This document shows, piece by piece, positions 10,462 to 48,004 of a stretch of 64,000 nucleotides of DNA (the first letter of the stretch is position 1; every line of letters starts with the position of its first letter). Source of the DNA: Granulicella sapmiensis (GTDB lineage Bacteria > Acidobacteriota > Terriglobia > Terriglobales > Acidobacteriaceae); contig JAMFSR010000013.1 in assembly GCA_026225395.1 (NCBI GenBank), forward strand, positions 80,933-144,932, read 5' to 3'. The position numbers and the translations under genes are program-made. The notes beneath the pieces are model-generated. The model did no database searches, was not told where the DNA came from, and saw only the letters and a program-made list of their open reading frames with translations.

Positions 10462-10677
10462 CTGCAATCTGCGCTGTCAAACACACAGAATCAACCACTT
10501 AGACCGGTAGAGAACCGTACATTGCTTGTGGCTTGTAAGCGCAGCAGCGTCTTGTGATCCGGGCTGAGGAAACGATAGTTCAAAGTTTCCCTATTGCTGC
10601 CGTCCGGGCTGATTCTCCGTTTGCCAACCGGAGATCCAAACGCCGCTGCCTACTTTGTTGAGTTCAAGGAGAACCAG

Positions 10678-14426: not shown

Positions 14427-14662
14427 CGCGCTGTATACAAAGTTGATTCTCGAAACAATCTGAGCGTTTATCTTCTTCGGAGGGCGTGAACCGTTTTAGC
14501 CTGACGACAGCCTGCAATGGCAGAAATCATTTGTAGTCCTTGTTCTTGTTCTCGGAGACTTGCTTGATGTTGGTTCAGAAGCGTGATGTGTCCCACGACT
14601 CCATGGAAGTGTTTTCCTATCGCGCTAAACCTGCGGTCTTCTTACTGTCGTGCCTGCTCTCG

Positions 14663-17077: not shown

Positions 17078-17103
17078 AGAGGGTGGATCTACTTGTGCGG
17101 AAA

Positions 17104-19320
17104 ATGGTTATGAAGGCAATCTTTGGAACGACTCTTCTAGTGGTGAGTCTGCTGGCCGCAAGGGTCCCTGCTGTCGCGCAACAGCCGCAGCATTCGTTGC
17201 CTTGGTTCAACACAAGCTTGTCACCGGATGAACGCGCGAATCTCCTGCTGCATGAGATGACACAGGCGGAAAAGATCCAGATGGTTCATGGTATCGGGTG
17301 GGGACCTCTGCGTCCGGGCTCACCTGTCCCTCTGGGCAACAATGGTGGTGCAGGTGAAGTAGTTGGCATCCCTCGCCTCGGTATCCCTGATTTAAATCAG
17401 GCTGATTCGGCAGTAGGCATACGCATGGCGGCAGAGCAGAGCCGTTACGCTACATTGTTGCCATCCGTGCTGGGCGCTGCTGCTTCCTGGGATAACGATG
17501 CAGCCTATCTCTATGGAGACGTCATCGGACGGGAACTGCGTGCGCAGGGGTATAACGAGTCTATCGGTGGCGGAGTCGATCTGGCGCGCGATCCGCGCAA
17601 CGGAAGATTATTTGAGTATCCCGGCGAAGATCCTGTCTTGGCCGGCTATACGGTGGGCAATCTCATCCGCGGTGTGCAGGCCAATCATGTGATGGGCGAT
17701 ATCAAGCACTATGCCTTCAACGATCAAGAAACGGGCCGCACGATTGTCGATGTCCATATCGACCACAAAGCAGCGCGGGAAAGCGATCTGCTGGCCTTTG
17801 AGTTGGGTATCCGTATAGGCCATCCGGCATCGGTCATGTGCTCCTATAACAAGCTAAATGGCGATTGGGCCTGCGAGAACGACTGGCTCTTGAATCACAT
17901 TCTCAAACATGACTGGAACTTTCCCGGCTTCGTCTTATCTGACTGGGAGGGAACTCACTCCACAGTCAAAGCTGTGATGGCCGGCCTCGATATGGAACAG
18001 CCCAGTAGCGATTTTTTCGGTCCGGCACTCGCGCAGGCCGTGTCGTCAGGCAGCGTTCCGCAAGCAAGGCTCGATGATATGGTCCACCGTATTTTACGCG
18101 GCATGTTCGCCACTGGTGTGATCGATCACCCCACAACTCCGCGTAAAGTAGTCGACCCTTTTCTCGGACGTGACGACGCCCAGAAAATTGCGGAAGAGAG
18201 CATCGTTATGTTGAAGAATGTGGGTGGAGTTCTGCCGTTGAATCCGGCTCGTCTCCACACCATTGCCATTATCGGAGCACACGCTGACGTGGGTGTGATG
18301 TCCGGGGGCGGATCTGCGCAGGTCGATGCACCCGGCGGCAACACCATCCGTCCGAATACACCCACTCAATGGGGCGAGCCGGTCTACTTTCCATCGTCGC
18401 CGATGCGCTATATCCGGGAACACGCACCGAATGCAGACGTACGATTCGATGCAGGCGTCGATCTCGTTTCAGCAGCGACGTTGGCAAAGAACTCTGACGT
18501 CGCCATTGTCTTTGCGGATCAATATATGAGCGAAGGGGCCGATTCTCTGACGCTCTCCTTGCCAAACAATCAAGATGCCTTGATTCAGGCCGTCACAGCC
18601 GCCAATCCTCATACAGTGGTCGTGCTGGTCACCGGCAATCCGGTGAGTATGCCGTGGGCCCACCAGGCCTCTGCAATTCTGGAAGCGTGGTATCCCGGTA
18701 TTGGAGGCGGTCAGGCGATCGCAAACATTCTCTTTGGCAGCGTCAATCCCTCCGGCAAGCTGCCCATTACTTTTGCGAAGAGTGAAGCAGACTTACCTCA
18801 TCCGCAGATATTCGGTATCGATGCAAGCGCGGGCCAGGCTGGTTTGCCGGAGCACTGGAGCGCGGAGCGACAGAAGACTTCGTTCCCCGCAAACTTCACC
18901 GAAGGAGCGCGTGTTGGGTATAAGTGGTTCGATTCTGAAGACAAGCAACCATTGTTCCCCTTCGGCTTCGGGCTCTCTTACACCACGTTTCGTTACTCTG
19001 GTCTTCATGCGGATGCGGCATCGAAGTCGGTAACGTTTACGCTGGAGAACACTGGCCAACGCGCTGGAACGGAGATCACTGAGGTCTATGTGCAGCTGCC
19101 TCATTCTTCCGGCGAAAACTTTCGTCGGCTCGCAGGATGGCAACGAGTAGCGCTTGCTCCGGGTGAACAGAGGTCAATCCACATAGAACTGGAATCGCTC
19201 GCGCTGGCTAGCTTCGATGAGGCCGCAGAGAAATGGCAATGGCTTCCGGGAGATTACGTTGTATCTGTCGGAGGCTCCTCACGCGACCTGCATTTGCAAG
19301 GTGGGATGACGATGCGGTAG
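17104..19320 (+). CDS. GH3 beta-glucosidase/beta-xylosidase, secreted
   Basis: 'GFVLSDWEGTHSTVKAVMAGLDMEQP' (GH3 nucleophile), 'EESIVMLKNVGGVLPL', C-terminal fibronectin-like domain; signal peptide 'MVMKAIFGTTLLVVSLLAARVPAVAQQ'. Confidence 0.93.
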   Translation: MVMKAIFGTTLLVVSLLAARVPAVAQQPQHSLPWFNTSLSPDERANLLLHEMTQAEKIQMVHGIGWGPLRPGSPVPLGNNGGAGEVVGIPRLGIPDLNQADSAVGIRMAAEQSRYATLLPSVLGAAASWDNDAAYLYGDVIGRELRAQGYNESIGGGVDLARDPRNGRLFEYPGEDPVLAGYTVGNLIRGVQANHVMGDIKHYAFNDQETGRTIVDVHIDHKAARESDLLAFELGIRIGHPASVMCSYNKLNGDWACENDWLLNHILKHDWNFPGFVLSDWEGTHSTVKAVMAGLDMEQPSSDFFGPALAQAVSSGSVPQARLDDMVHRILRGMFATGVIDHPTTPRKVVDPFLGRDDAQKIAEESIVMLKNVGGVLPLNPARLHTIAIIGAHADVGVMSGGGSAQVDAPGGNTIRPNTPTQWGEPVYFPSSPMRYIREHAPNADVRFDAGVDLVSAATLAKNSDVAIVFADQYMSEGADSLTLSLPNNQDALIQAVTAANPHTVVVLVTGNPVSMPWAHQASAILEAWYPGIGGGQAIANILFGSVNPSGKLPITFAKSEADLPHPQIFGIDASAGQAGLPEHWSAERQKTSFPANFTEGARVGYKWFDSEDKQPLFPFGFGLSYTTFRYSGLHADAASKSVTFTLENTGQRAGTEITEVYVQLPHSSGENFRRLAGWQRVALAPGEQRSIHIELESLALASFDEAAEKWQWLPGDYVVSVGGSSRDLHLQGGMTMR

Positions 19321-32369: not shown

Positions 32370-33719
32370 ATCACACACCTCGACCGCAGAAGCTTCCTCC
32401 AGTCCGCCGCCAAGACCGCCGCCCTTGCCTCCGCCTCTACCGGCTTTCAGACCCTTCTCGCCCAAACCGCGCCCACCCCCGCACCTTCCGCTGCCGACAC
32501 CATCCACCTCGCCCTCATCGGCGCCGGCATCCAGGGCCAGGGCGATACCGCAACTGCCCTCCAGGTCCCCGGCGTCAAGCTGGTTGCCGTCGCCGACTGC
32601 TACGACGGCCGCCTCACCCACGCCAAAGAGCTCTGGGGCCAGGACATCTTCACCACCCGCGACTACAACGAAATCCTCGCCCGCAAAGACGTCGACGCCG
32701 TCCTCATCGCCACGCCCGACCACTGGCACAAGCGCGCCGCCGTCGACGCCATGAAGGCCGGCAAGGACGTCTACCTCGAAAAGCCGATGATCCACATCTA
32801 CCCCGACGGCCCGGAGATCATCGAAGCCGCCCACTCCACCAACCGTATTCTCCAGGTTGGCAGCCAGCGCGTCAGCTCCGTCGTCTACGCCAAGGCCAAA
32901 GAGCTCCTCGCCTCCGGCGCCATCGGCAAGCTCAACATGGTCACCGCCCGCTGGGACCGCAACTCCTCCATCGGCGCCTGGAACTACTCCATCCCGCTCG
33001 ACGCCTCCACCGAAACCTGCGATTGGCCGCGCTTCGAAGGCGCAGCCCCCAAAATCCCGTTCTCCGCCGAGCGCTTCTTCCAATGGCGCAAGTGGAAGGA
33101 CTACGCCTCCGGCGTCGCCGGCGATCTCTTCGTGCATCTCTTCAGCGGCACACACTTCATCACCGGCGCCAACGGCCCCACCCGCGCTATGGCTACCGGC
33201 GGTCTCCGCTTCTGGAAGGACGGCCGCGACGCCAACGACGTCCTGCTCGCCCTCTTCGACTACCCCGAAGGCTTCAACCTCAGCCTGCACGTCAACTTCG
33301 TCGATGGCGGTGAAGAGAGCGAAGGCTTCCTCTTCACCGGCTCAGAAGGCCTCATGGAAATCGCCGGCAACACCGTCACCGTCACCCGCACACCCCTCGC
33401 CACCGAACCCGGCTACACCGTCTCAACCTTTGCCAACGCCATGCAGAAGGATTACCTCCAGCAGTATCGCCAGAAATATCCCGTGACGCATCCGGACGGC
33501 CCTCCACCCCAGGCAGTCGAAAAGTACGCAGCCGCCCGTGGATACTCCGACAGCTACGACCACTTCCACAACTTCTTCGCCTCCGTCCGCAGCCGCAAGC
33601 CCGTCGTCGAAGACGCCACCTTCGGCTTCCGCGCCGCCGGCGCCGCTCTGCTCAGCAATCTCAGTGTCGAGCGGGGAAGCGTGGTCCACTGGAATCCGGA
33701 GACGATGAAGCTCGGCTAA
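32370..33719 (+). CDS. Gfo/Idh/MocA-family oxidoreductase with Tat-like signal; non-canonical or lost start codon
   Basis: Frame 3 from 32364 encodes (D A I)THLDRRSFLQSAAKTAALAS...IHLALIGAGIQGQGDTATALQVPGVKLVAVADCYDGR...IATPDHWHKRAAVDAMKAGKDVYLEKPM. First in-frame ATG is 32751, after the Rossmann motif. Confidence 0.8.
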   Translation: MTHLDRRSFLQSAAKTAALASASTGFQTLLAQTAPTPAPSAADTIHLALIGAGIQGQGDTATALQVPGVKLVAVADCYDGRLTHAKELWGQDIFTTRDYNEILARKDVDAVLIATPDHWHKRAAVDAMKAGKDVYLEKPMIHIYPDGPEIIEAAHSTNRILQVGSQRVSSVVYAKAKELLASGAIGKLNMVTARWDRNSSIGAWNYSIPLDASTETCDWPRFEGAAPKIPFSAERFFQWRKWKDYASGVAGDLFVHLFSGTHFITGANGPTRAMATGGLRFWKDGRDANDVLLALFDYPEGFNLSLHVNFVDGGEESEGFLFTGSEGLMEIAGNTVTVTRTPLATEPGYTVSTFANAMQKDYLQQYRQKYPVTHPDGPPPQAVEKYAAARGYSDSYDHFHNFFASVRSRKPVVEDATFGFRAAGAALLSNLSVERGSVVHWNPETMKLG

Positions 33720-33767
33720 CCGCCAACAGCCAACAACGACCGTCTGTGGTCAGCCAACGAACGGTAG

Positions 33768-33820
33768 GGCAGGGCTTCAGCCCTGCCATTAACGTGAAGA
33801 AAGAGATGGGCTTTAGCCCC
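33768..33820. repeat. Twin-palindrome repeat, copy B
   Basis: GGCAGGGCT-TC-AGCCCTGCC (33768..33787) then GGGCTTTAGCCC (33808..33819). Confidence 0.8.
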
Positions 33821-33835
33821 CGAGGCCTGTTACCT

Positions 33836-35245
33836 ATGTCCAGAAACGTCCACCTCAAACTTCTGCTTCCGCTGCTCATCGCCGCGATCGCCGCCCCACT
33901 CCACGCGCAAGACCCCGCCCACGCCACCGAGTTCCGCCTGCAGCACCCCGGCAACGGCCCCAACGGCGAACCCCGCATCGCCTTCCTCACCCATCGTCTC
34001 GGCACCGACCACGCTGAAGGCATCTCCGTCCTCGACATGAACCACGACGGTTTTCCCGACCTCCTCAGCGGCGCCTACTGGTACGAAAATCCCGGCGCCA
34101 ACGGCGGCGCCTGGAAGCAGCACCAGTTCCGCACCGTCGGCATTCACAACGAGTTCGTCTCCGACTGCGGCGAGTGGGTCGTCGACGTCGACCACGACGG
34201 CCTGCCCGACCTCGTCACCACCGGCTGGATCGCCAACGGCGTCTGGTGGTACCGCAACCCCGGCCCTGAAGCCACAGCCGCCGGCACCATGTGGAAGCCC
34301 GAGAAAATCACCGACAGCTTCGACACCGAAGGCGGCGCCTTCTTCGACATCAACGGCGACGGCAAGCCCGACCTCGCGCTCGCCCACTACAACCGCTCCG
34401 GCGTCCTCTGGATCGACTTCAGCCACGACAAACCCCGCACCCACCACCTCGGCGGCAAGGAGCAGGACGGTCACGGCATCGGCATCGCCGACATCAACGG
34501 CGACGGCAAAGCCGACGTCCTCACCACCCACGGCTGGTTCGAGCAGGTCGATGCCGACAACGACAAATGGATCTGGCACGCCGATTGGGACCTCGGCGAC
34601 GCCGGCTTTCCCATCCTCGGCTACGACGTCAACCACGACGGCAAAATGGACCTCATCTACGGCCAGGGCCACGGCTACGGCCTCTACTGGCTCGAACAAA
34701 CCGGCACCGGCTCTACCCGCCATTGGACCCGCCACACCATCGACGAATCCTTCTCCCAATCCCACGCCCTCGCCCTGATCGACCTCGACGGCGACGGCAT
34801 CCCGGAACTCATTACCGGCAAGCGCTACCGCGGCCACTCCGGCAACGATCCCGGCTCCTACGACCCCGTAGTCGTCTACGCCTACAAGCTTCCCACCGCC
34901 GCGCAGTTCGCCGTCGCAAAGCCCCACAGAAAAACTTCATCGGCAAAGCCACAGAGCGCCACGATGACCATCGGCGATGGCATAGGCGATCCCGTCTTTG
35001 AGCGCATCACCCTCTCCGTCAACGGCACGGCCAGCGCGGGCACGCAGTTCGTCTCCGCGGACTTCGACCACGACGGTGACATCGATCTCGCCAGCGCCGA
35101 AAAACTCGGCGTCCACGTCTTCGAAAACCTCAAGATCGACCACACACCCAAAGCCGTCCGCGAAGAAATCCAGCCACTCAACCGCACATGGCCATTCCCG
35201 GGCGAAGGCTCCGAAGTCCCACAGGAAGACGGCCCCAAACCGTAG
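33836..35245 (+). CDS. FG-GAP/VCBS repeat-containing secreted protein
   Basis: Repeated 'D.N.DG..D' motifs (VLDMNHDGFPDLLSG, VVDVDHDGLPDLVTT, FFDINGDGKPDLALA, IADINGDGKADVLTT, YDVNHDGKMDLIYG, LIDLDGDGIPELITG, SADFDHDGDIDLASA); signal peptide. Confidence 0.93.
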   Translation: MSRNVHLKLLLPLLIAAIAAPLHAQDPAHATEFRLQHPGNGPNGEPRIAFLTHRLGTDHAEGISVLDMNHDGFPDLLSGAYWYENPGANGGAWKQHQFRTVGIHNEFVSDCGEWVVDVDHDGLPDLVTTGWIANGVWWYRNPGPEATAAGTMWKPEKITDSFDTEGGAFFDINGDGKPDLALAHYNRSGVLWIDFSHDKPRTHHLGGKEQDGHGIGIADINGDGKADVLTTHGWFEQVDADNDKWIWHADWDLGDAGFPILGYDVNHDGKMDLIYGQGHGYGLYWLEQTGTGSTRHWTRHTIDESFSQSHALALIDLDGDGIPELITGKRYRGHSGNDPGSYDPVVVYAYKLPTAAQFAVAKPHRKTSSAKPQSATMTIGDGIGDPVFERITLSVNGTASAGTQFVSADFDHDGDIDLASAEKLGVHVFENLKIDHTPKAVREEIQPLNRTWPFPGEGSEVPQEDGPKP

Positions 35246-35310
35246 GCTCTATCCGCCGGACTTTCACAGACATCGTGTGGTTGGGGGCATGATCGAACGA
35301 CTCGACCCAC

Positions 35311-36195
35311 CTAGTTCGAAGCGGCCTGACTAGCGGGATGCCCAAACGTCAGCCGCACGGTATCGCCCTTCGTCACGCGATAACCCGAGTCCGGCTTCTG
35401 GGCCGTAACAGGCCCCGCAGGGACCACAGGCGCTGCAACCACAGGAGCAGCAACAACCGCGGCAGGTGGTGGCGCTCCTGCCGGGAAGGAAATCGCCTGC
35501 CCGTTCGCATCGATCTTCACCCCGGCCGCGTTCGTGGTGTATGCCGGAGGTGCAGCCGCAGCTACGGGCGCAGCCGCCGCTGGCGCTGGAATATCCGAAA
35601 GAAACGTCACCCGCAGCCCCAGCGCAGCGGCTGCATGGTTCGCATCTCGATACGTCATCCCCACAAACGACGGCATCACAATCGCGCTCGATGCACCGGA
35701 GGCAGTCGAACTCAGCAGCAGCGAAACCCGTGGCTGATCGACACCCGCATTCGGCGGCGGCGTCTGCGCCAGCACAATATCCGGATCGCCCGGCGCATCG
35801 ATATGCGCCAGTGTCCCAAGGTCCAGCGAATCGCGCCGGATGTTGATCGAAGCCTCACGCTCCGGCTCTCCCGCAACATCGGGAATCGTCACCTGCTGCG
35901 GCCCCAGGCTCTCCGTAACGCGAACCACCCACCCATGCCGCACCTTCGAGCCCGAAGCCGGAGCCTGAGACAGCATCCGCCCAGCCGGCACAGTCGTCGA
36001 ATAAAACTTGTTCTCGATATTGAGATCGACGCCTGTCTGCAACGCAGCAGCGCTTGCTTCAGAAACCGTCATCCCCGAAAAATTCGGCACCGTCACCTCA
36101 TGTCCATGCAGCGCAATCCGAAGCGTGATGGCCGCGGAGAGGAACATCACGAAGAGCATGGCAAGCGTGCTGAGGATCAATCGAAAAAGCTTCAT
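35311..36195 (-). CDS. PASTA-domain protein with N-terminal TM anchor
   Basis: Successive PASTA units 'VTVPNFSGMTVSEASAAALQTGVDLNI', 'VTIPDVAGEPEREASINIRRDSLDLGTL', 'IVMPSFVGMTYRDANHAAAALGLRVTF'; N-terminal hydrophobic helix. Confidence 0.88.
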   Translation of the reverse strand: MKLFRLILSTLAMLFVMFLSAAITLRIALHGHEVTVPNFSGMTVSEASAAALQTGVDLNIENKFYSTTVPAGRMLSQAPASGSKVRHGWVVRVTESLGPQQVTIPDVAGEPEREASINIRRDSLDLGTLAHIDAPGDPDIVLAQTPPPNAGVDQPRVSLLLSSTASGASSAIVMPSFVGMTYRDANHAAAALGLRVTFLSDIPAPAAAAPVAAAAPPAYTTNAAGVKIDANGQAISFPAGAPPPAAVVAAPVVAAPVVPAGPVTAQKPDSGYRVTKGDTVRLTFGHPASQAASN

Positions 36196-36288
36196 AGGTC
36201 TTCACAATACAGATGTAGAAAATCGGTTGTCAGTTGTGAGTCAAAACCGTCGAAGTCAAAGAGCTAAACCCAACCCCCAAAACCCGTT

Positions 36289-37743
36289 TCATCTTGCATT
36301 ATCAGTAGCCGGCTCCGGGTGAATCAGCACCCGCGCCACCTGCGGATGGTGCAGCCGGAACTCGCTTTCGAACTCGGTAATGACTTCATGGACGCGTGAC
36401 ATGGGCAGATCGTCGGGCAACGAGATGTGGCAATTGATCTGCACACTGTTCGCCGCTCCGCCATGCCCACGCGTGACGGTAACCTCGTGGACGTCGTGGA
36501 TTTCGGGAAAGTGTTCCGCGGTCTGGACCAGCTGCTGCGTCAGATGCTCGTTGGCCTCGAACTGCACCGGCGATGCAATCGTAGCGGGTTCGGACTCAAT
36601 GTGCGTGAGCACCGTATCGACCGACGGAACTTCGCGGCGAATCTCCGACTCAAGCTGTGTAGCCACGTCGTGCGCGTCTTGCAGCGACATCGTCTCCGGC
36701 ACTTCAAGATGCTGCTCCACATGCAGCGCCCCTTCATACTGCTGCACGCTCACATCATGCAGGTTCAGGTTGTTGCGCGCAGCCACGGCGCGGATGCGGT
36801 CAAAAACGCTTTCGCCCACCGCAGCCGTAGGCACCGAATGGATCACGACATCTGCCCCAGGCAAACGCTGCTGCACCGCCGCCGTCGCTGCAAACGTAAT
36901 CTGTTCCGACCTCTGGAAAGTCAGGTTGCGCGGCATACCTAGCGTAAGGTCGACGAAATAATCCGAGCCCGACCGCCGCACCCGCACCCGCTCCACGGTG
37001 AGCACGCCATCTACAGCCTCAAGATCGTTCACCAGATCGCGGCGGATCTGCGCACGGGCTTCCGAAGGCGTCGCATCCAGCAGCGAGTCGATCGTCGTGC
37101 GCGCCAACCGCCATGTCACCGTGAGGATCACGCACGAAACCGCAAGCGCAGCAACGGGGTCGGCATAGCGCAAAGCGGGAATATGGAATCGCCCGCCCGC
37201 ATAGGTAGCCAGAAGTCCGAGAAAGACCGCCGCTGCGGACCACAGATCGGTGCCGAAGTGGACAGCATCGGCCTCCAGGGCGTCCGAACGCTGTTCCATG
37301 GCGACACGGTGCAGCGACCGCGACCGCGTGTAATCCACCGCCATCGAAAGCAGCAGCACCACGAACGGCCACACCGACCATCGAAGATCGAGGTGCTCAT
37401 TGTGCAGGATGCGGTAGATGGCTTCGCGCGCAATCCACACACACGAACCCGCCATAAGCAGGATCTCAAACGCCGCCGAAAGGCTTTCGAGTTTCCCATG
37501 CCCGTAGTTGTGGTCCTCATCCGCAGGCCGGTCGGAGACGCGCACGGTAACAAGCGTAATAGCGGAAGCGATCAGGTCGATCGCCGAATGCGCAGCCTCG
37601 CTCAACATACCCAGCGATCCGGCAAGCACACCCGTAAGCAGCTTGAGCAGCGTGATCGCCAGCGCCGCCATCAGGGACGAAAGAGCAGCGGCGCGTTTAG
37701 CGGCACTGCGTTGTTCCAGCTCTCGCGTCCACTGCCCGTGCAT
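36289..37743 (-). CDS. Cation diffusion facilitator (CDF) family transporter
   Basis: 'SLGMLSEAAHSAIDLIASAITLVTVRVSDRPADEDHNYGHGKLESLSAAFE', 'DALEADAVHFGTDLWSAAAV' and three C-terminal cytoplasmic-type domains. Confidence 0.94.
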   Translation of the reverse strand: MHGQWTRELEQRSAAKRAAALSSLMAALAITLLKLLTGVLAGSLGMLSEAAHSAIDLIASAITLVTVRVSDRPADEDHNYGHGKLESLSAAFEILLMAGSCVWIAREAIYRILHNEHLDLRWSVWPFVVLLLSMAVDYTRSRSLHRVAMEQRSDALEADAVHFGTDLWSAAAVFLGLLATYAGGRFHIPALRYADPVAALAVSCVILTVTWRLARTTIDSLLDATPSEARAQIRRDLVNDLEAVDGVLTVERVRVRRSGSDYFVDLTLGMPRNLTFQRSEQITFAATAAVQQRLPGADVVIHSVPTAAVGESVFDRIRAVAARNNLNLHDVSVQQYEGALHVEQHLEVPETMSLQDAHDVATQLESEIRREVPSVDTVLTHIESEPATIASPVQFEANEHLTQQLVQTAEHFPEIHDVHEVTVTRGHGGAANSVQINCHISLPDDLPMSRVHEVITEFESEFRLHHPQVARVLIHPEPATDNAR

Positions 37744-37784
37744 GCCCTTGAGGATACAGGAGAGAAGGCGTGAACGTTACCTTG

Positions 37785-39308
37785 CTATGGTTCCGGAACA
37801 ACTTCGATAGCATTCACGAGCGGGTAATTGACGATCGGTAAAAAGGAAAGCTCGATATTGCCCTGCGGCGTCGCTTCCACATTGTCGAACGTCTTCACCA
37901 CCGGATTGGACCCGCCTTCGGCCATGATGTCGAAGTTCTTCAATAACAGGCTGCCGTTGGCCGAAACGTCGAAGACGCGGCTCCCCGGTCCGCCCGGCGT
38001 ACTGTTGTACTTCCCAAACCATGGCTCGGAGAAATAAAGCGTCACGCGATATTTTTCATGGGCCAGTACGGGGATGTTGTAACGAAAATGCCCAATGCGG
38101 TCGTAACTATAAATGCCACGATTGGGATTTCTTGCTTGATCGGGAAGCTGCCCCCGCCGGCCGCCGGTGAAATACCGATCGGAAAGCCACGTCTGGTTAT
38201 TGGAGTCGACGATCGCTACAGGACCTGTAGTGATGCGCACAGGCAGAAGTTTTTCAGACGGCGCAGGCAGGATCTCGATCGCGTTCAGCGGAGATACTTC
38301 GCTTGTGTAATCGATATGGATAGTGCCGTCCGTCTCCGGCCGGACCCCACCCACAACATAGGCGGTAGCTACTCCGTCGCCTCCCGCATTGTCCACCACA
38401 TCGAAGTTCACCGCTGCTTCCGCTGCGTTAATTGCCAGGCTGGCGCGGCGTGTAGCAGGCGGCAGGTTCGAAGTCTCCGCGAAATGGAAGTGCAACTCAT
38501 ACATGCCCGGCTTCACCTTGAAGGTGCAGTGAGCGATCCCGCGGATCCCGGCAAGATAAAGATACGGGTCCTCGGTGCCTCCAATGCGTTGGGCGGGAAT
38601 GCTGACGTCTTCGCCACTGGTGCAATATTTGCCGTTGGCCCAGGTATTTCCTGAGCGATCTACATAAGGTTTGCGGCTGGGACCCATCAGCGCCCGGACG
38701 GTATTCTCCGGAATCGGCAAAGCCGGTGGCGATCCCGCCGTCAGCGCCGTGGCGACGCTTGAACTCTTGTTGTGGGCATACACAAACATCCCGTAGATGC
38801 CAAGAGCGACGACCAGCGCCGTCATGAGCATCCACATCCCGCCGCCTTTGGCCGGTGGCAGCGCTGCCTGCGGCGCGTCGGCCGTTGGTGCAGGCACATC
38901 CGCCTCAAGCGACAACGGCAGATCCAGCTCCATGCGCTTGGCATCGCTCTCCCGATGCACAAAGGAAGGAACATAGTGTCCCGCGGGGATCACGATATGG
39001 ACAGCGTGTTCCGCGCCCCCGTTTGAATAAATCTCCTGCAGCCGCTTGCGCAGGGAGTGCGCAGTCACCCGGACGATCGTGTCGACCTGCGGATCAAAGT
39101 CGCTTCGCCGGCCCAGCGCCTCGACCGCGATGGTGTACTCCTTCACCTGCTCGTCCCGGCCTTCGAAGTGTTTTTCGCAGATAAAAGCGAGCATCCGCGC
39201 GAGGTGGTTGGATCGCCCGAGCACGCCGGACGTCAAAAGCCAACTCAGTTCCTCCTTCTCTGCTTCGACGCTGTCGCACACTGCCGGCATCCCACACACC
39301 CAATACAT
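37785..39308 (-). CDS. Putative membrane-anchored one-component regulator with tandem malectin-like periplasmic domains
   Basis: N-terminus 'LARMLAFICEKHFEGRDEQVKEYTIAVEALGRRSDFDPQVDTIVRVTAHSLRKRLQEIY...VHIVIPAGHYVPSF'; TM 'GGMWMLMTALVVALGIYGMFVYA'; two malectin-like units (GTEDPYLYLAGIRGIAHCTFKVKPGMYELHFHFAET...; WLSDRYFTGGRRGQ...YRVTLYFSEPWF...RVFDVSANGSLLLKNFDI...PLVNAIEVVPEP). Confidence 0.75.
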   Translation of the reverse strand: MYWVCGMPAVCDSVEAEKEELSWLLTSGVLGRSNHLARMLAFICEKHFEGRDEQVKEYTIAVEALGRRSDFDPQVDTIVRVTAHSLRKRLQEIYSNGGAEHAVHIVIPAGHYVPSFVHRESDAKRMELDLPLSLEADVPAPTADAPQAALPPAKGGGMWMLMTALVVALGIYGMFVYAHNKSSSVATALTAGSPPALPIPENTVRALMGPSRKPYVDRSGNTWANGKYCTSGEDVSIPAQRIGGTEDPYLYLAGIRGIAHCTFKVKPGMYELHFHFAETSNLPPATRRASLAINAAEAAVNFDVVDNAGGDGVATAYVVGGVRPETDGTIHIDYTSEVSPLNAIEILPAPSEKLLPVRITTGPVAIVDSNNQTWLSDRYFTGGRRGQLPDQARNPNRGIYSYDRIGHFRYNIPVLAHEKYRVTLYFSEPWFGKYNSTPGGPGSRVFDVSANGSLLLKNFDIMAEGGSNPVVKTFDNVEATPQGNIELSFLPIVNYPLVNAIEVVPEP

Positions 39309-39390
39309 TCAAGTCAAACGCGCCGCAATTCTACTACAGCAATATCATCGTTGAATGCCTTCACTCCCGGGGAATCGATCGAGCTAAAAA

Positions 39391-39411
39391 TGTTAGCGGC
39401 AACCGCTAACA
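39391..39411. promoter_or_regulatory. Putative operator TGTTAGCGG-CAA-CCGCTAACA
   Basis: 9-bp perfect arms, 3-nt spacer, in the divergent intergenic region between the malectin-type regulator and a TBDR. Confidence 0.6.
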
Positions 39412-39869
39412 ACGTTAATTTTCCGCATTCACGCAGGTTTTCCCGGAACGAAAGTCCTTATTTTAGTTTGCTTTACAAGGCGTTCCCGCTGGGGCGTGAC
39501 TTCCCGGCTTCCGTTCACCTGTATTCACTTCGGATTCACATGACAGCCTCGATTTCTGTTGCTACGTTGGCTCCCGTAAATCAACGATTCTTTCGTGTGC
39601 CTCCAAACCGGGCGACGATCCGGCGGATGTACGGCGCATACGGAAGAGATCGGATATGGCAACGAACACCTTCCCCCCGCCCTGAGTGGCAAAGACTTCC
39701 GGCGGGGCCGACAAGAATCCTGACGGAGTCAATATGTAACTCGCGCTGCGACTCGTTGCAGACCATCTCGTTACTGGCCTTGTTTATTCAAGCGCTTGTG
39801 TATTAAAGTGCACCGTTCCAAAAACAGATGCACCAGCCGGCACCAATGTTCCACTTCTAGGAGATCCAA

Positions 39870-42800
39870 ATGGACGTACATCGCATTTCCCAGTCCCAGC
39901 CTCGTAGCCTGTTCCGTACATGCGTCGCTTTCGCCGCGCTTCTCATCCTGTCGCTCTTCGGAAGCAGCAGCTACCTCCACGCACAGGCTGTCAGCGGCAC
40001 CATCGTAGGCACCGTCACCGACCCCTCAGGCGCAGTCGTCGCCAACGCCCAGGTCACGATCGTCCTTACCGGCCAGAGCGCCGTCCACACCTCGGTCACC
40101 AACGAGAGCGGCAACTTTACAGAGCCGAACCTTCCTCCCGGCGTCTACGCCATCACCATCGTTGCTCCCGGCTTCAAAAAGGAAACCCGCGAAAACATCA
40201 CGCTGGACACCAACGCGACCTCCCGCGTAGACGTCACCATGGCCACCGGCAGCGCGACCGAAACCATCACCGTCACCACCGCTCCCCCACAACTCCAGAC
40301 CGACCGTGCCGACATCTCCACCACAATCGAAGCCAGACAGATTGCCGCCCTTCCCCTCTCCAGCGGCAACAGCTTCCAGTCCCTGCTCAACACTGTGCCC
40401 GGTATGGCGCCCGTCGTCTTTAACAACTCGCAGTTCTTCAACTCCAACAACGATCTCTCCACCAACGCCAACGGCCAGTCATCCTACGTCAACCTCTACC
40501 AGGTCGAAGGCATCGACGACGACGAGCGTACCGGCATTCACATCATTCTCGTTCCACCCGCCGCCGCCATCGCCAACGTCGACATCACCACCAATAACTT
40601 CGAGGCCGAGTTCGGCCGTGCCGTCGGCACCGTCGTCAACGTCACCCTCAAGTCCGGCACCAACCAGTTTCACGGTTCTGTCTTCGGGAGCATGGAGAAC
40701 AACGGCGTCAACGCCCGCAACTTCTTCCAGAAGGCTCCCAACGGCCGCCTGGTCTATAACTACGACGGCGCCTCCATCGGTGGCCCGATCCTCAAAAACA
40801 GGCTCTTCATCTTCGGCGACTTCCTCCGTGTCTCCGATCACGAGGAAGCGAACAACGTTGCCACCATCCCTTTCTATAACGTCAACTCCGCCGGTGCTCT
40901 CAACCTCTCCGAATACAAGGGTCAGGCGTACGATCCCACCACCGGCGACACGGCAGACTGCCTTGGCGCCACGGCCAATGCTGCTTGCGGAACAGGTCGC
41001 ACTCCCTTCGCCGGCAACCTCATCCCGCTCTCGAATCCCGGCATCAACCAGTCCGCCCTCACCGTCCTCAAGGATATCGACGCCATCGCGCGCAACCCGG
41101 CGACCAACCTCGCCTCTACCGCATACCTCGCAGGCGCCACCTCCAACAACCTCTCGCAGAATCTCGGCTTCCACAAGGACTTCACCAGCTACGACATCAA
41201 GTCCGACTACGCTATCTCCACCAAAAGCCACCTCAGCTATCGCTTCAGCCATCAGAACGTCAACACCTTCCAGGCCCCGACCTTTGGCGCCTTCCTGGGT
41301 GGTCCGGCCGGCGGCGGATTTGAAGCCACCGGCGTCGCGGCCGCCTACTCCACCGGCGCCAACTACGACCATGTCTTCTCGCCCACCCTCTTTACCGAGG
41401 CCCGCGTTGGCGTAGCCCACTACCGCAACTCCGCCACCCAGACCGACTACGGCGCCAACGACGCCAAGACCCTCGGCATCCCCGGCAACGGCCCCAACGG
41501 CACCGACAACACCATCACCAGCAGCGGCCAGGTAGCTCTCAATCTCGGCAACTTCACGGCCCCGACGGTCGGTTACTCGGTTTCGCTGCCCTGGCTGCGC
41601 GCCGAATCGAACATCGACTTCGCCAATAACTGGACCAAGCTCCTCGGCAACCACACCCTTAAAGCCGGAGCCGATATCCGCCGCATTCGCGACGATCTCT
41701 TGCAGGGCAACATCAACGCCGCGGCCGGCTCGTTCACGTACGCGGAGAACCAGACCTACGTTCCCACCGGCGGGACCACCTTCAACGGATCGGCCACCGG
41801 CCAGGCCAACGATGTAGCCAGCTTCCTCTTCAACGTGCCAAGCAACGTCGGTCAGGACACCAACAGCACCTTCCCCGCATACCGTCAGACCTGGCTCTTC
41901 TTCTTTCTCTCCGATAAATGGCAGGTCAACTCCAGGCTCACGGTCGATATCGGCGGACGCTACGAGCTCTACCCGCCGGCCACGCCGCGCAAGCCTGGTG
42001 GCTTCGTCAACTACAACCCCACCACCAACCAGCTCGTCGAGGCGGGCCTCGCCGGTAACCCCTCCAACCTCGGCATGAAGACCGACTACGATAACTTCGC
42101 GCCACGCCTCGGAGCCTCTTTCCGCGTCACCGAAAAACTGGTCGTACGTGGCGGAATCGGCGTCAGCTACGTCCCCTTCGTCGATAACACCTACGCCTAC
42201 AACTACCCCATCAAAACCAGCACCAACTACACCCCCGGCACCACCTATGGCCCCTCTCTCAACCCGGCTGGCGGCGTCGTCAACCTCTCCACCGGTGTTC
42301 CGGCCACTCCGACAGTCGCCTTCGGGTCGGACGGTACCCTCCTGGAGTCGGCCGCCAACGGCACCCTTTCACTCGGCAACCTCTACATTCCCCTCAACTT
42401 CAAGAACGCCTACGTCACCAGTTGGAACACAGCTATCCAGCAGGCTCTTCCGCAGGATATGTCTCTCCAGATCGCCTACGTCGCCAACCACGGCACCCGT
42501 ATCGATGTAGCGCAGAACATCAACCTGCCCAAGATCTACGGGCAGGGAGCAAACTACGATCCGCTGAACAAAGCCCCTGACGGCGTCACCCCGACCTTCA
42601 ACAAGACCGCGTCGGTAACCGAGTACTTCCTCGGTTATTCCACCAACTACCAATCCCTCCAGGTGGAACTCAAGAAGCGCTTCAACCACGGTGTGGCCTT
42701 CTCTTCCGCCTTCACCTGGGGCAAGGCCATGAACTGGCAGACCGGCCCACAGGATGGCGGTCTTCTCTTCTGGGCCGGTCCGCTTCGCCGCAACTACGGG

Positions 42801-43436
42801 TTGGCCGACTTCGACCGTGCCCGCAACTTCGAGCAGACCGCTACCTATGAACTGCCCGCGGGACGCGGCCACAAGTACTTCAACCATGGACCCGCGAACC
42901 TTGCGCTGGGCGGCTGGAAGGTCTCGACGGTCATCTCCGCGGTCTCCGGCCTGCCCTTCAACATAACCGGCAACAGTGCAACCACTGGAACGACACAGAC
43001 GGCCAATCTGTCCGGCGCGTACAAGGTGTTGCACAACGTAGCTGGGGGCAATATCTCAACCTATCCGCAGTGGTTCGATCCAGGCACCACGACCGCTCCC
43101 AACTTCACCGCGCCGGCAACCTGCGTTGTCTATTCGCCGACCAACCAGGTTCCCTGCGCCGTCGGCAACACCGGCCGCAACCAGTTCCGCGGTCCCGGCT
43201 ACCTGTCGGACAATCTGTCCCTCTTCAAGAGCTTCCCCATCTTCCGCGAGGCGGCTCTTGAGGCCCGCTTCGATGCCTTCAACGCCACCAACACACCGGC
43301 CTTCGGCTTGCCCTCCAGCAGCATCACCTCCAGCACTTTCGGCCAGATCACCGGTACCCTCGGTTCGGGCGTCGGCAACGTCAACGGCGTAGGCGGCCCG
43401 CGCGTCCTTCAGGCAGGAGTCAAAATCACGTTCTAA
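39870..43436 (+). CDS. TonB-dependent receptor, Oar-like, with carboxypeptidase regulatory-like domain
   Basis: 1188 aa; RBS AGGAG; 'GTIVGTVTDPSGAVVANAQVTIVLTGQSAVHTSVTNESGNFTEPNLPPGVYAITIVAPGF'; barrel end 'GPRVLQAGVKITF'. Confidence 0.93.
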   Translation: MDVHRISQSQPRSLFRTCVAFAALLILSLFGSSSYLHAQAVSGTIVGTVTDPSGAVVANAQVTIVLTGQSAVHTSVTNESGNFTEPNLPPGVYAITIVAPGFKKETRENITLDTNATSRVDVTMATGSATETITVTTAPPQLQTDRADISTTIEARQIAALPLSSGNSFQSLLNTVPGMAPVVFNNSQFFNSNNDLSTNANGQSSYVNLYQVEGIDDDERTGIHIILVPPAAAIANVDITTNNFEAEFGRAVGTVVNVTLKSGTNQFHGSVFGSMENNGVNARNFFQKAPNGRLVYNYDGASIGGPILKNRLFIFGDFLRVSDHEEANNVATIPFYNVNSAGALNLSEYKGQAYDPTTGDTADCLGATANAACGTGRTPFAGNLIPLSNPGINQSALTVLKDIDAIARNPATNLASTAYLAGATSNNLSQNLGFHKDFTSYDIKSDYAISTKSHLSYRFSHQNVNTFQAPTFGAFLGGPAGGGFEATGVAAAYSTGANYDHVFSPTLFTEARVGVAHYRNSATQTDYGANDAKTLGIPGNGPNGTDNTITSSGQVALNLGNFTAPTVGYSVSLPWLRAESNIDFANNWTKLLGNHTLKAGADIRRIRDDLLQGNINAAAGSFTYAENQTYVPTGGTTFNGSATGQANDVASFLFNVPSNVGQDTNSTFPAYRQTWLFFFLSDKWQVNSRLTVDIGGRYELYPPATPRKPGGFVNYNPTTNQLVEAGLAGNPSNLGMKTDYDNFAPRLGASFRVTEKLVVRGGIGVSYVPFVDNTYAYNYPIKTSTNYTPGTTYGPSLNPAGGVVNLSTGVPATPTVAFGSDGTLLESAANGTLSLGNLYIPLNFKNAYVTSWNTAIQQALPQDMSLQIAYVANHGTRIDVAQNINLPKIYGQGANYDPLNKAPDGVTPTFNKTASVTEYFLGYSTNYQSLQVELKKRFNHGVAFSSAFTWGKAMNWQTGPQDGGLLFWAGPLRRNYGLADFDRARNFEQTATYELPAGRGHKYFNHGPANLALGGWKVSTVISAVSGLPFNITGNSATTGTTQTANLSGAYKVLHNVAGGNISTYPQWFDPGTTTAPNFTAPATCVVYSPTNQVPCAVGNTGRNQFRGPGYLSDNLSLFKSFPIFREAALEARFDAFNATNTPAFGLPSSSITSSTFGQITGTLGSGVGNVNGVGGPRVLQAGVKITF

Positions 43437-43457
43437 CTAGAAAGGCAGCACTCACGG

Positions 43458-43489
43458 CGCGCATCCCTGGGGATGCGCGTCTCTTTTTG
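43458..43489 (+). terminator. Rho-independent terminator after TBDR
   Basis: CGCGCATCC-CTGG-GGATGCGCG followed by TCTCTTTTT. Confidence 0.85.
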
Positions 43490-43504
43490 CTCTTGCTCCT
43501 GCTT

Positions 43505-43545
43505 TTCTTATTGTCATTCTGAGCGCAGCGAACGAACCTGCTTCC
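43505..43545. repeat. Dispersed 'GTCATTCTGAGCGCAGCGAACGAACC' element
   Basis: TTATTGTCATTCTGAGCGCAGCGAACGAACCTGCTTC; matches a short intergenic element I recognise from many bacterial genomes; degenerate related copy near 26099. Confidence 0.6.
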
Positions 43546-43610
43546 TCCCGTTCTTGACTTTGCTTTTCTTTCTGTCATCCTCGCAGGCGATCTGCTTTTC
43601 TCCCGTCTAC

Positions 43611-43765
43611 CCAACCCCCGGGTGGCCCATCCTTTGCGCTCTTTGCAAAGGGTGGGGTACCGCGCAAAGCGCGACCGCTCTTGCTTTTCCTTCCGCCGGC
43701 CCCAACCCTCCGGGTGGCCCATTCATGCGCGCTCTTTGCGCATGAGTGGGGAACACCAAAAGCCA
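43611..43765. repeat. GCTCTTT-loop hairpin repeat, copy 1 (two hairpins)
   Basis: GGGTGGCCCAT-CCTTTGC-GCTCTTT-GCAAAGG-GTGGGG and GGGTGGCCCAT-TCATGCGC-GCTCTTT-GCGCATGA-GTGGGGAACACC. Confidence 0.85.
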
Positions 43766-43853
43766 AGCCCGCTCCTTGCTTTTCTTCCTATCATCTCGCA
43801 GAGGACCTACCGTCCTAAGGCCTGAAGGCCCGACCCATAAACCTCCGCCCCGG

Positions 43854-45089
43854 CTACTGCGTCGCGGGATTCCCCGCCCAATACCCATCCCGCGACGTCA
43901 CCACAAACCCCGCATACCCCGGCGTCTTCAACTCAATCACATGAAACCCCGCCGTTGGCGACTGCGGTTGAAAGCTCAACACATACCTGTTCGGAATATG
44001 GTTCGAAAGCGTCTGCAAACTCTGCTCCATGCTCTTCTCATCCGTCAGCTTGAAGTACTCCCCACCCGTAAGCCGCGCCACCGTCTCCGGAATATTTCGC
44101 TTCAAGCTATCGGTAGCATCGATGGCCGCCATCTTCGCCAGCGCCAGCGGCGGCGCGAGCTGCGTAAGGCAATCGTAGGCCTGCACAATCTTGTTATGCG
44201 TAGCGTCGGGATCGGCATTAGGATCCTTGCCCATGCACCCATGCGGTGGGCCCGGATGTGCATTCTCAAACAGCCGTCCCGAGTTCGACATCGGGCTCAC
44301 CGGAACCGTCGGCAGCTCCCGATGCGCATAGTGCGCCGCCTCCGACTTGCCCGTCGAAAACCCAATACTGTAGATCGCCGTGTTCGTGTCCGTGATAGCC
44401 CGCAACGCTTCGTCAAGCTTCAGCGAGCTCCCGCGATCCAGCGTCTCACTCACCAGCAGAATCGCCCGCCGGTACGTCGTCGGCTGCTTGCGCAGCAAAC
44501 TCACCGAGTATCCAATGCTATCCAGAATCGCCGCCCCGTTATCCCCCAGGCTCACGTCGTGTTCCGCACCCTTTGCCTCACAGTTATCCAAATGCTTCTG
44601 TCGCGTACATCCCGGTTCGAGATCCAGAATCGCCTGCGCCGCCGCATCCACATTCGACGTAAAGTCCTGTTCCAGCGACGACCGGCTATCGAACGCCACC
44701 ACCGCAATCCTATGTGGCACATTCCCCACCAGCGCATCGAGCATGGGCGCAAGCGCCTTGAACTTCTCATACTCCCGCGTACCCGCACCCCCAATCTCGA
44801 TGTCAACCACCAGCGCCAGCGGCTCACCGCCGGTATCCGGCTCAAGCCTCAGCTTCTGCGGAACCCCATTGTCGGTAAGCGCAAAGTCATCAGCCGTCAG
44901 CGTAAAGACCAGGTTGTTATGCTTGTCGCGAACCAGCGCAGGCACAAGCACCAGCGTAGAGCTGGTCGTGATGGTATCGGTCTGCAACGGCCCATCAGAG
45001 GAAGCCTGCGCCACACCATACAAGCTCGTCGCAGCAAGAGCCACACAGCCGGCCGATAGAGCGACGTGAAACTTCATGCCGAATCTCAT
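43854..45089 (-). CDS. VWFA-related Acidobacterial domain protein, secreted
   Basis: 'VLVPALVRDKHNNLVFTLTADDFALTDNGVPQKLRLEPDTGGEPLALVVDIEIGGAG', 'VAVVAFDSRSSLEQDFTSNVDAAAQAI', 'RAILLVSETLDRGSSLKLDEALRAITDTNTAIYSIGFS'. Confidence 0.88.
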   Translation of the reverse strand: MRFGMKFHVALSAGCVALAATSLYGVAQASSDGPLQTDTITTSSTLVLVPALVRDKHNNLVFTLTADDFALTDNGVPQKLRLEPDTGGEPLALVVDIEIGGAGTREYEKFKALAPMLDALVGNVPHRIAVVAFDSRSSLEQDFTSNVDAAAQAILDLEPGCTRQKHLDNCEAKGAEHDVSLGDNGAAILDSIGYSVSLLRKQPTTYRRAILLVSETLDRGSSLKLDEALRAITDTNTAIYSIGFSTGKSEAAHYAHRELPTVPVSPMSNSGRLFENAHPGPPHGCMGKDPNADPDATHNKIVQAYDCLTQLAPPLALAKMAAIDATDSLKRNIPETVARLTGGEYFKLTDEKSMEQSLQTLSNHIPNRYVLSFQPQSPTAGFHVIELKTPGYAGFVVTSRDGYWAGNPATQ

Positions 45090-45123
45090 GCAACGGTTAG
45101 ACGTACACAGAAACGACCCGCGA

Positions 45124-45939
45124 CTAAACCTTCGTCGCCCGGTAAAGCCCCGCCGCCCGCAGCAAATACCCATCCCACATCTCGCCGCGAAACCCCGCGT
45201 CCCGCAACAACCCCAGCATCTGCGGCGGCCGCGGAAACCGCGCCACCGAAGCCGGCAGATACCGGTACGCCGCGCGATCCCCGGAGATAGCCCCACCGAT
45301 CACCGGCAACACATGCTTGAAGTACAGGTTATACAGCGCCCCCGAAAGCCCATCCGGATTGTTGCACTCCAGAATCCCCAACTGCCCACCCGGCTTCAAC
45401 ACGCGATGCAACTCCGCCAGCGCCGCCGGATAGTTCGTCAAATTCCGAAACCCAAACGCCGAAGTCACCAGGTCAAAACTCGCATCCGGATAGGGAAGCC
45501 GCATCGCATCGCCTTCCACCCACTCGATATGCGTCTTCGGCGTCGGATACTTCACCCTCGCCCGGTTCAGCATCTCCGCCGAAAAGTCCAACCCCACAAT
45601 CGGCGCAACCGGCCCATCCGCCAGCGGCTTCACCGAGCACACCGTGCACATCGTATCGGTAGTCGGCCTCAGTGCCAGCAGCGCGGAAGTCATGTCCCCG
45701 GTCCCGCAGCAGATATCCAGCACCCGCGCCTCGGGCCGTATCAGCGTCTTCCGAAAGCACTGCGCCGCCCGCGACCACCACAACCGGTCCAACCCCATCG
45801 AAAGCAGATGGTTCAGCAAATCATAGCTGGGCGCAATCGAATCAAAAATCTCTCGCACATGCGTAGCAGCAGTTGCCTCTTCCACCTCAGCCGTTGGCCG
45901 CGCGCCCAGAATCTCCGGTGTCACAATCGGCGTAGACAT
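45124..45939 (-). CDS. ubiE: Ubiquinone/menaquinone biosynthesis C-methyltransferase
   Basis: 'VREIFDSIAPSYDLLNHLLSMGLDRLWW', 'VLDICCGTGDMTSAL', 'GDAMRLPYPDASFDLVTSAFGFRNLTNYPAALAELHRVLKPGGQLGILE'. Confidence 0.96.
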   Translation of the reverse strand: MSTPIVTPEILGARPTAEVEEATAATHVREIFDSIAPSYDLLNHLLSMGLDRLWWSRAAQCFRKTLIRPEARVLDICCGTGDMTSALLALRPTTDTMCTVCSVKPLADGPVAPIVGLDFSAEMLNRARVKYPTPKTHIEWVEGDAMRLPYPDASFDLVTSAFGFRNLTNYPAALAELHRVLKPGGQLGILECNNPDGLSGALYNLYFKHVLPVIGGAISGDRAAYRYLPASVARFPRPPQMLGLLRDAGFRGEMWDGYLLRAAGLYRATKV

Positions 45940-47045
45940 TAGGCAGTCACCTGTTCCCCACGCAACTCCATCATCGCCTCCGCCGCGTCCGTCAACTCCG
46001 CCGGCGAAACATCACGAACCACCGTAGCATCCCCAATCCCAATCGGCAGCACAAACGACCGCGATCCGCTCCGGTTTTTCTTATCCTTCGCCGTCAGCGC
46101 CACCAGGTCACCCACATTCGCCGAAAAGTTCTTCAGCGGCCCATAAGCCCGAATCACGCGTCCCATCCGCTCTGCCTCATCGGTCGTCACCAACGCCCGT
46201 CGCTCCGCAATCCCAATCGCCGCCAGCATCCCCCACGCCACGGCCTCGCCATGCAGCAGCGCCTTGTACTTCGTCGCCGCTTCAATCGCATGCCCCAGCG
46301 TATGCCCCAGGTTCAGCAGCATCCTCTCGCCGGACTCCTTCTCATCCGCCGCGACAACCTTAGCCTTCACTCGCACACTCTCTGCGATCACATGCGTCAG
46401 CGCCGCAACATCCCCAGCCAGCACCGTCTCACTATGCTCGTCCATGTACTCAAACAGCGCCCGGTCGCGAATGATCCCCGCCTTCACCGCTTCCTGCAGC
46501 CCCGCCCGAAGCTCAGCATCCGGCAGCGTCGCCAGCACTGCCGTATCCGCATACACCGCCAGCGGATGATGAAACGCCCCAAACAAATTCTTGCCCGCGG
46601 CCAGGTTCACGCCCGTCTTCCCGCCAATCGCACTATCGATCTGCGCCAGCGCCGTCGTCGGCACCTGGATATACCGAATCCCGCGCATATACCCCGCCGC
46701 CAGAAACCCCGTCATATCCCCGAGCACGCCACCGGAAAACGCAATCAGCACCGAATCCCGATCCGCCCCCGCTTCTGCCATCTGCTCCGCCAGCCGCTCC
46801 ACCGTAGCCAGCCGCTTATGCTGCTCGCCCGCCGGCACTTCCAACACCGTAGGCGCCGTCGCAAAGCCCTTCAGAAACGCCTCACCATGCAGCGCCCAAA
46901 TCCCCGGCGACGTCACCACAAACATCCTGGGCCCCGCCGGCAACAGAGCCGCTACGCGCTCTCCAACCTCAGCCAGCAAACCAGGCGCAATCTCCACGTC
47001 ATAAGACGCCGAAGCCGTGCGCACGGGAATAATCGTTCCAGTCAT
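45939..47045 (-). CDS. aroB: 3-dehydroquinate synthase
   Basis: '[92 protein letters not shown]', '[14 protein letters not shown]'; TAATG overlap with ubiE. Confidence 0.98.
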
Positions 47046-47095
47046 CCCTTTCAGGATATCCCACCCGCCCCCTCACACCTCATCCCTCCCCACCC

Positions 47096-48004
47096 TCATA
47101 CCTCTACAATCACCTTCGGCCAAAGCAACGATGCCCCCACCGTCACCCCCAGCAACCCCGCAATAATCCCCAGCGAAAGCAGCGGCCCCACCGTCACCCA
47201 ATCCGCCATCAACATCTTCAGCGACGCAAATATCAGCAGCGCCGCCAGCCCAAAGTGGATATACCTTAGCTTCACCAGCATCGCCGTCAGCAGCACATAC
47301 AGCGACCGCAAACCCATCACCGCCATAATGTTAGACGTATAGGCCAAAAACGGCACCCGCGTAATCGAAAGCACCGCCGGTATCGAATCCAACGCAAAAA
47401 TCACATCCGTCAGCTCGACGGCCACCAGCGCCAGCAACAAAATCGTCGCCATCCTCCGGCCACCTTCCTTCACAAAGAAATGGTCCTGGCTCTCGCTGAT
47501 CGGCCGCAGCTTCGTCAGCCACGTAATCCATTGGGGCGTCTTCTCGTTCGTATCCGGATTCTCCGGCTTCAGCAGCCTTACCGCCGCCACCAGCAGGATT
47601 GCCGCAAACACATACTCCACCCAGTGAAACCGTTCCAGCAGCCCCAACCCACCCGCAATAAACGCCCCCCGCATCACAATCGCTCCGGCAACGCCCCAGA
47701 ACAACACCCGTGGCTGTCGCGCCGGCGGTATCCGAAACATGTTGAACAGCAGCAGAAACACAAACAGGTTATCGATCGAAAGCGCCTGCTCCAGCGCATA
47801 CCCCGCCAGATACTCCAGCGACCCGCCACGCCCATAGTGCCGCGCCAGCACCCCTGCCAGCACCAGCGCCGAAGCCGTCCACAGCACCGTCGCATACGCC
47901 GCCTTCTTCCGCGTATCCGGCACAGCAATATGCAGCGCATACTCCGCCGCCAGCAGCGCCACGAGCGCAAGATGAAAGTAAAGCCAGTAGGAGAGGGGAG
48001 TCAC
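47096..48004 (-). CDS. TerC/Alx-family integral membrane protein
   Basis: 'EYLAGYALEQALSIDNLFVFLLLFNMF', 'VAVELTDVIFALDSIPAVLSITRVPFLAYTSNIMAVMGLRSLYVLL'. Confidence 0.95.
   Translation of the reverse strand: MTPLSYWLYFHLALVALLAAEYALHIAVPDTRKKAAYATVLWTASALVLAGVLARHYGRGGSLEYLAGYALEQALSIDNLFVFLLLFNMFRIPPARQPRVLFWGVAGAIVMRGAFIAGGLGLLERFHWVEYVFAAILLVAAVRLLKPENPDTNEKTPQWITWLTKLRPISESQDHFFVKEGGRRMATILLLALVAVELTDVIFALDSIPAVLSITRVPFLAYTSNIMAVMGLRSLYVLLTAMLVKLRYIHFGLAALLIFASLKMLMADWVTVGPLLSLGIIAGLLGVTVGASLLWPKVIVEV

Follow-up and report, generated by a model that had tools for sequence, protein, structure and literature searches.

CadC and ToxR consist of an N-terminal winged helix-turn-helix (wHTH) domain, a single transmembrane (TM) helix, and a C-terminal periplasmic sensor. 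SusR of Bacteroides, also membrane bound, senses glycans in the periplasm and controls a TonB-dependent receptor, and the hybrid two-component systems and FecI/FecR are dedicated, multicopy regulators that act locally on TonB-dependent receptor loci. Among soil bacteria the Acidobacteria are abundant; they encode dozens of TonB-dependent receptors per genome, and no account of how these receptors are regulated was found in the literature searched. Here we describe a gene in a 64,000-nucleotide stretch of the Granulicella sapmiensis genome (contig JAMFSR010000013.1; the whole stretch is called the window below) that encodes a membrane-anchored protein with a tandem malectin C terminus and faces a TonB-dependent receptor gene. 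The gene is one of a multicopy family of regulators whose sensors can be exchanged, and only a minority of the family is of the malectin type. With moderate confidence, we read its product as a one-component transmembrane transcriptional regulator, similar in kind to CadC and SusR, of glycan uptake by the facing receptor. The general idea of a transmembrane one-component regulator has precedent. No published description of this N-terminal domain family was found in the literature searched, nor was its scale, its link to receptors, or the exchange of its sensors.

The features of the locus are as follows.

37785 to 39308, minus strand: membrane-anchored regulator gene, 507 amino acids, with N-terminal domain, TM helix, and two malectin domains (open reading frame [ORF], Pfam, AlphaFold mean pLDDT 82)
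38949 to 39281, minus strand: N-terminal domain, residues ~10 to 120, four predicted helices and a beta-hairpin wing, putatively DNA binding (AlphaFold pLDDT 92 for the isolated domain, in-register hhalign alignment with Trans_reg_C)
38757 to 38840, minus strand: single TM helix, residues 157 to 184 (hydropathy, AlphaFold helix)
38262 to 38699, minus strand: malectin-like domain 1, residues ~204 to 349 (AlphaFold; family profile positions 209 to 356 match GH2-associated malectin modules in PDB)
37794 to 38240, minus strand: malectin domain 2, residues ~357 to 505, with the aromatic pair W430-F431 (Pfam PF11721 at 359 to 479, malectin and ANXUR structure matches, alignment columns)
39309 to 39869: divergent intergenic region, 561 bp (sequence)
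39391 to 39411: perfect 9+3+9 palindrome TGTTAGCGG-CAA-CCGCTAACA, candidate operator, or terminator-like on the minus strand (sequence)
39870 to 43436, plus strand: TonB-dependent receptor, 1188 amino acids, CarboxypepD_reg and OMP_b-brl_4 (PF25183, 616 bits), divergent partner (Pfam)

The N-terminal domain family is associated with TonB-dependent receptors

The preliminary description of this DNA, made from the sequence alone, had staked its reading on a positional association between the N-terminal domain (N-domain) family and receptors, and that association is strongly borne out. In a complete congeneric genome (G002), 12 of the 25 N-domain genes are divergent from a PF25183 barrel that starts less than 2 kb away, whereas random placement gave a mean of 0.24 and a maximum of 3 in 2,000 trials; as 65 of the 140 receptor candidates were scored, 12 of 25 is a lower bound. 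The genome from which the window comes has 10 N-domain regulators, with a receptor immediately divergent from 3 of them and placed second or third in the divergent run for 3 more, while the same divergent-receptor arrangement occurs for none of its 13 Trans_reg_C genes. A set of 60 loci in 25 relatives was chosen for similarity to the query and so is not a random sample; in 34 of these the receptor was the first divergent gene, and several further loci had a receptor downstream on the same strand. The window regulator itself matches the N-domain profile (E 2.5e-43, with its own sequence in the profile), faces a PF25183 receptor, and is also found by the N-domains of distant family members. Of the 21 malectin-type proteins, only 7 (the window gene and six relatives) have a receptor as first divergent gene, so it is the N-domain family as a whole, rather than the malectin sensor by itself, that is associated with receptors.

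A second pair of this kind occurs in the window, where an N-domain regulator (9022 to 10425, minus strand) is directly divergent from a PF25183 receptor (10594 to 14388, plus strand). This receptor is followed by GH31 and GH3 genes (14540 to 17077 and 17020 to 19320), and an L-arabinose isomerase gene (7540 to 8997) lies beyond the regulator.

Anatomy of the regulator

The compact N-domain, single TM helix, and two malectin-like units proposed in the preliminary description were recovered by Pfam, hydropathy, AlphaFold, and Foldseek. The full-length AlphaFold model, built on an alignment of 21 relatives, has a mean pLDDT of 82 and a disordered linker between the N-domain and the TM helix. By hydropathy, residues 158 to 176 are the only hydrophobic segment, and nearly all of 32 N-domain proteins have one TM helix between their domains. 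The C-terminal half matches malectin (PF11721) at 81.6 bits in two stretches, against a Pfam cutoff of 23, and is modeled as two beta-sandwiches. Foldseek against PDB ranks ANXUR2 and FERONIA first, each by its tandem-malectin ectodomain (E 8.6e-16), and human malectin (9ikp) aligns with a TM-score of 0.64 by target; Pfam match and fold agree in placing the protein in the malectin family. Because its ortholog L001 begins with MPVAPSRLEAEKAEL, Met7 (39290) is an equally good start.

The N-domain is predicted to form helices at residues 10 to 26, 34 to 48, 57 to 64, and 78 to 96 and a hairpin at 103 to 106/115 to 118, with the VRVTAHSLRKRLQEIY stretch starting at V79. In the predicted structure two helices, a basic helix (TIVRVTAHSLRKRLQEIY), and a wing with a G-x-Y turn follow one another as in Trans_reg_C, and the predicted recognition helix contains R80 and R87, which are invariant among relatives. 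When the N-domain was aligned by hhalign to the 13 Trans_reg_C domains of the window genome, 48 columns fell in register, a weak match (P 7.9e-4 to 2.8e-4, probability 25 to 41; the best of 12 column-shuffled controls gave a P of 0.0055). The Foldseek match of highest probability, at a nonsignificant 0.15, was the C-terminal domain of an OmpR-type response regulator (3q9v). The only match in a sequence-profile search of PDB, to TetR, was discarded as being at chance level (E 1.1). In other proteins the N-domain also precedes TPR and PD40 domains, which are partner domains of CadC-like regulators. The N-domain likely binds DNA. One relative has a different arrangement: an ORF that is open at the end of its stretch (L141:1-1566, minus strand) carries a Ser/Thr protein kinase domain (residues 19 to 280) followed by the N-domain.

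Sensor exchange and the link to carbohydrates

Sampling of 199 genomes across the phylum found the N-domain in 26, concentrated in the family to which G. sapmiensis belongs, with up to 19 copies per genome in that sample and 25 in G002; the malectin-type regulator was present in 8 of 297 genomes. Family members mostly carry a C-terminal domain of about 270 residues (60 of the 70 members outside the malectin search); others carry tandem malectin, glycoside hydrolase family 16 (GH16) domains that lack catalytic residues, TPR, or PD40. The 270-residue domain, which has no Pfam or PDB match, follows the TM helix, is conserved (ARD..DL...N.IL.GSP..NPW..LF; e.g., L023:808-2184, plus strand), and is the main sensor of the family.

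In a tree of N-domains, the malectin pairs form one main clade, with two more (L067 and L073) inside clades of the other type, and the starred branches require that the sensor label changed at least twice. Two proteins with a GH16 domain, L074:753-2603 (minus strand) and L075:9595-11478 (plus strand), nest in the malectin clade by their N-domains. The active GH16 motif is ExDxxE; at its position these proteins read SVTIAE and SIGIMQ, so that they are apparently dead-enzyme sensors. That a constant DNA-binding-like domain is joined to changing carbohydrate modules is the best argument for the periplasmic part being the sensor.

Gene neighborhoods also point to carbohydrates. Paralogs face GH2, alpha-galactosidase, or receptor operons, and malectin-type relatives adjoin GH16, GH12, and GH81 genes (beta-glucan types) as well as GH43, GH10, and GH2 genes; in some cases the adjoining GH16, GH12, or GH81 protein itself bears a malectin domain. 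Domain 2 of the window regulator keeps W430-F431 at the positions of malectin Y116 and F117, which, with Y89, are carbohydrate-binding aromatic positions; the two columns are aromatic in 17 and 19 of 21 sequences, respectively.

The intergenic region and its palindrome

The preliminary description had placed the receptor divergently across 561 bp containing a near-perfect 21-bp palindrome, and this holds, except that the 9-nucleotide arms around the 3-nucleotide center are perfect (TGTTAGCGGCAACCGCTAACA). An equally good inverted repeat arises in ~1.5 to 2.5% of shuffled copies of the region, and the palindrome alone is only mildly surprising. A sigma-70 promoter scan of the 561 bp found none. 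The palindrome region shares a 13-mer (AAATGTTAGCGGC) and a 10-mer (CGCTAACAAC) with the region upstream of an ortholog in another genome (G001; regulator 51% identical), where the octamer half-site TGTTAGCG occurs twice exactly and once with one mismatch at a similar distance. These half-sites are kept although the facing receptors are only ~25 to 37% identical. We rejected the palindrome as a shared regulon motif, as it occurs once in the window genome (G000) and none of the same form occurs in G001. The receptor facing the G001 ortholog (L058:4846-8379) is split into two ORFs of 240 and 918 amino acids, possibly by a frameshift.

Across the family, 8 of 42 divergent regions contained an inverted repeat at p ≤ 0.025, against about 1 expected. 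Perfect palindromes lie between N-domain genes and receptors in L022:9160-9568 (11-bp arms), L105 (15), and L104 (11) and are candidate pair-specific operators.

The scan of neighbor genes around 32751 to 48004 (a subset of ORFs) revealed neither a SusD nor a hybrid two-component system nor a sigma/anti-sigma pair, in agreement with the preliminary description. With no SusD and no glycoside hydrolases among these neighbors, the locus does not resemble a SusCD-type polysaccharide utilization locus.

Proposed mechanism and alternative explanations

We propose that the cytoplasmic winged-helix-like N-domain would bind the divergent promoter region, with the palindrome as the candidate site, and that the single helix would cross the inner membrane to a periplasmic tandem malectin that may bind a carbohydrate, probably an oligosaccharide. 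Sugar binding would be signaled through the membrane and would alter, by activation or by repression, how strongly the facing TonB-dependent receptor gene is transcribed, which would complete an uptake loop. The anatomy, the family, its position beside receptors, and the swapping of sensors are observed, whereas the DNA contact, the orientation in the membrane, the ligand, and the sign of control are inferred. If the N-domain proteins are dedicated receptor regulators, the sensor attached to each would serve as a label for what the facing receptor takes up, and assays of soluble ectodomains could assign substrates to many receptors. Malectin and apparently dead GH16 folds would then serve as transcriptional sensors.

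Several observations weigh against this proposal. No Pfam DNA-binding model matches the N-domain; the N-terminal third of the protein lacks any Pfam match, with PF00486 (Trans_reg_C) absent even at an E value of ≤10, and the model search returned no Pfam or NCBIfam model for the domain. The isolated N-domain has no significant structure match in PDB by Foldseek (best E 2.3), although it is modeled with confidence (pLDDT 92). What stands of the Trans_reg_C-type wHTH in the preliminary description is the order of secondary structure and the in-register alignment, and not a PF00486 or significant Foldseek match. The CadC/ToxR topology given there is likewise supported by the N-domain, the single TM helix, and the C-terminal tandem malectin, but the N-in orientation rests on domain logic because the two flanks of the TM helix differ little in charge (86 versus 66 K/R in total across 32 proteins). 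The aromatic pair is missing from malectin domain 1, and the clade of the window regulator has Ile405 at the malectin Y89 position, which is aromatic in most relatives. The receptors that face orthologous regulators differ greatly in sequence. At L001 and L002 the receptor is instead encoded downstream on the strand of the regulator, and TGTTAGCG does not occur upstream of the regulator. No glycan-degrading enzyme gene adjoins the window regulator among the neighbors scanned.

This last observation, together with the partial retention of the aromatic binding positions, would also suit a regulator whose malectin module senses an envelope component (a peptidoglycan fragment, the cell's own exopolysaccharide, or a peptide) instead of a nutrient glycan. 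The nearest folds are plant receptor ectodomains, FERONIA and ANXUR, which bind RALF peptides, one of them solved with such a peptide (6a5e). However, the facing gene encodes a PF25183 receptor, relatives and paralogs adjoin glycoside hydrolase genes, and the GH16-like sensors of the same clade point to glycans, and we consider envelope sensing rather improbable. A slightly smaller chance is given to the N-domain being a cytoplasmic signaling module that makes no contact with DNA and acts by recruiting or releasing a separate factor, in the way that FecR acts on FecI. It would account for the missing structural match to a DNA-binding domain and for the weak profile similarity to Trans_reg_C, but not for predicted helices that end in a basic helix and wing, a receptor as recurring neighbor, TPR and PD40 partners like those of CadC-like wHTH proteins, or the enrichment of palindromes in divergent regions.

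It is very unlikely that the receptor is incidental and that the regulator instead controls the cation efflux gene (Cation_efflux and ZT_dimer in Pfam; 36289 to 37743) that lies 41 bp downstream on its own strand: short as that gap is, family members have divergent receptors much more often than chance predicts, and the genes downstream of malectin-type orthologs vary in length and strand between loci. For the palindrome taken separately, it is possible, though we doubt it, that it acts not as an operator but within the regulator's own leader, as an intrinsic terminator or attenuator. On the minus strand its 9-bp stem is followed by TTTTT and scores as terminator-like; yet it sits 82 bp upstream of an ORF on the same strand, which is odd for a simple terminator, and the half-sites in G001 have another arrangement without the T run.

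Comparison with known systems

A one-component regulator of the facing receptor, as we favor, has partial counterparts in several described systems. CadC and ToxR (PF00486) share with it an N-terminal domain that is predicted here to be wHTH-like, the single TM helix, a C-terminal sensor that is probably periplasmic here too, and a similar helix-wing motif, but the window N-domain is unmatched by PF00486, its model has no N-terminal beta-sheet, its sensor is a tandem malectin, and it lies next to receptor genes. SusR, too, is a single membrane-bound component that senses glycans in the periplasm and has a TonB-dependent receptor as target; its sensor and effector domains are unrelated to those described here, the domain order differs, and no SusD was among the neighbors scanned here. 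The plant CrRLK1L receptors FERONIA and ANXUR1/2 likewise pair a tandem malectin ectodomain with a single TM helix, but their effector is a kinase, their topology is N-out, and their ligands include RALF peptides; no orthology is claimed. TPR proteins annotated as adenylate cyclase on rhizobial plasmids have the same N-domain by tblastn and differ in their TPR C terminus and, in one record examined, in having no receptor neighbor. HigX of Caulobacter was rejected as a counterpart, being a LytTR protein with four TM helices (PMC13384398).

The hybrid two-component systems and FecI/FecR resemble the present family as dedicated, multicopy, locally acting regulators of receptor loci, whereas the window regulator is one polypeptide with no kinase, receiver, sigma, or anti-sigma component. 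We see about an even chance that this putative DNA-binding domain family without a Pfam model is the acidobacterial single-polypeptide counterpart of those systems, with up to ~25 paralogs per genome, many dedicated to one receptor locus and each drawing its specificity from an interchangeable periplasmic module, be it one taken over from carbohydrate-active proteins (a tandem malectin or a catalytically dead GH16) or the unassigned 270-residue domain.

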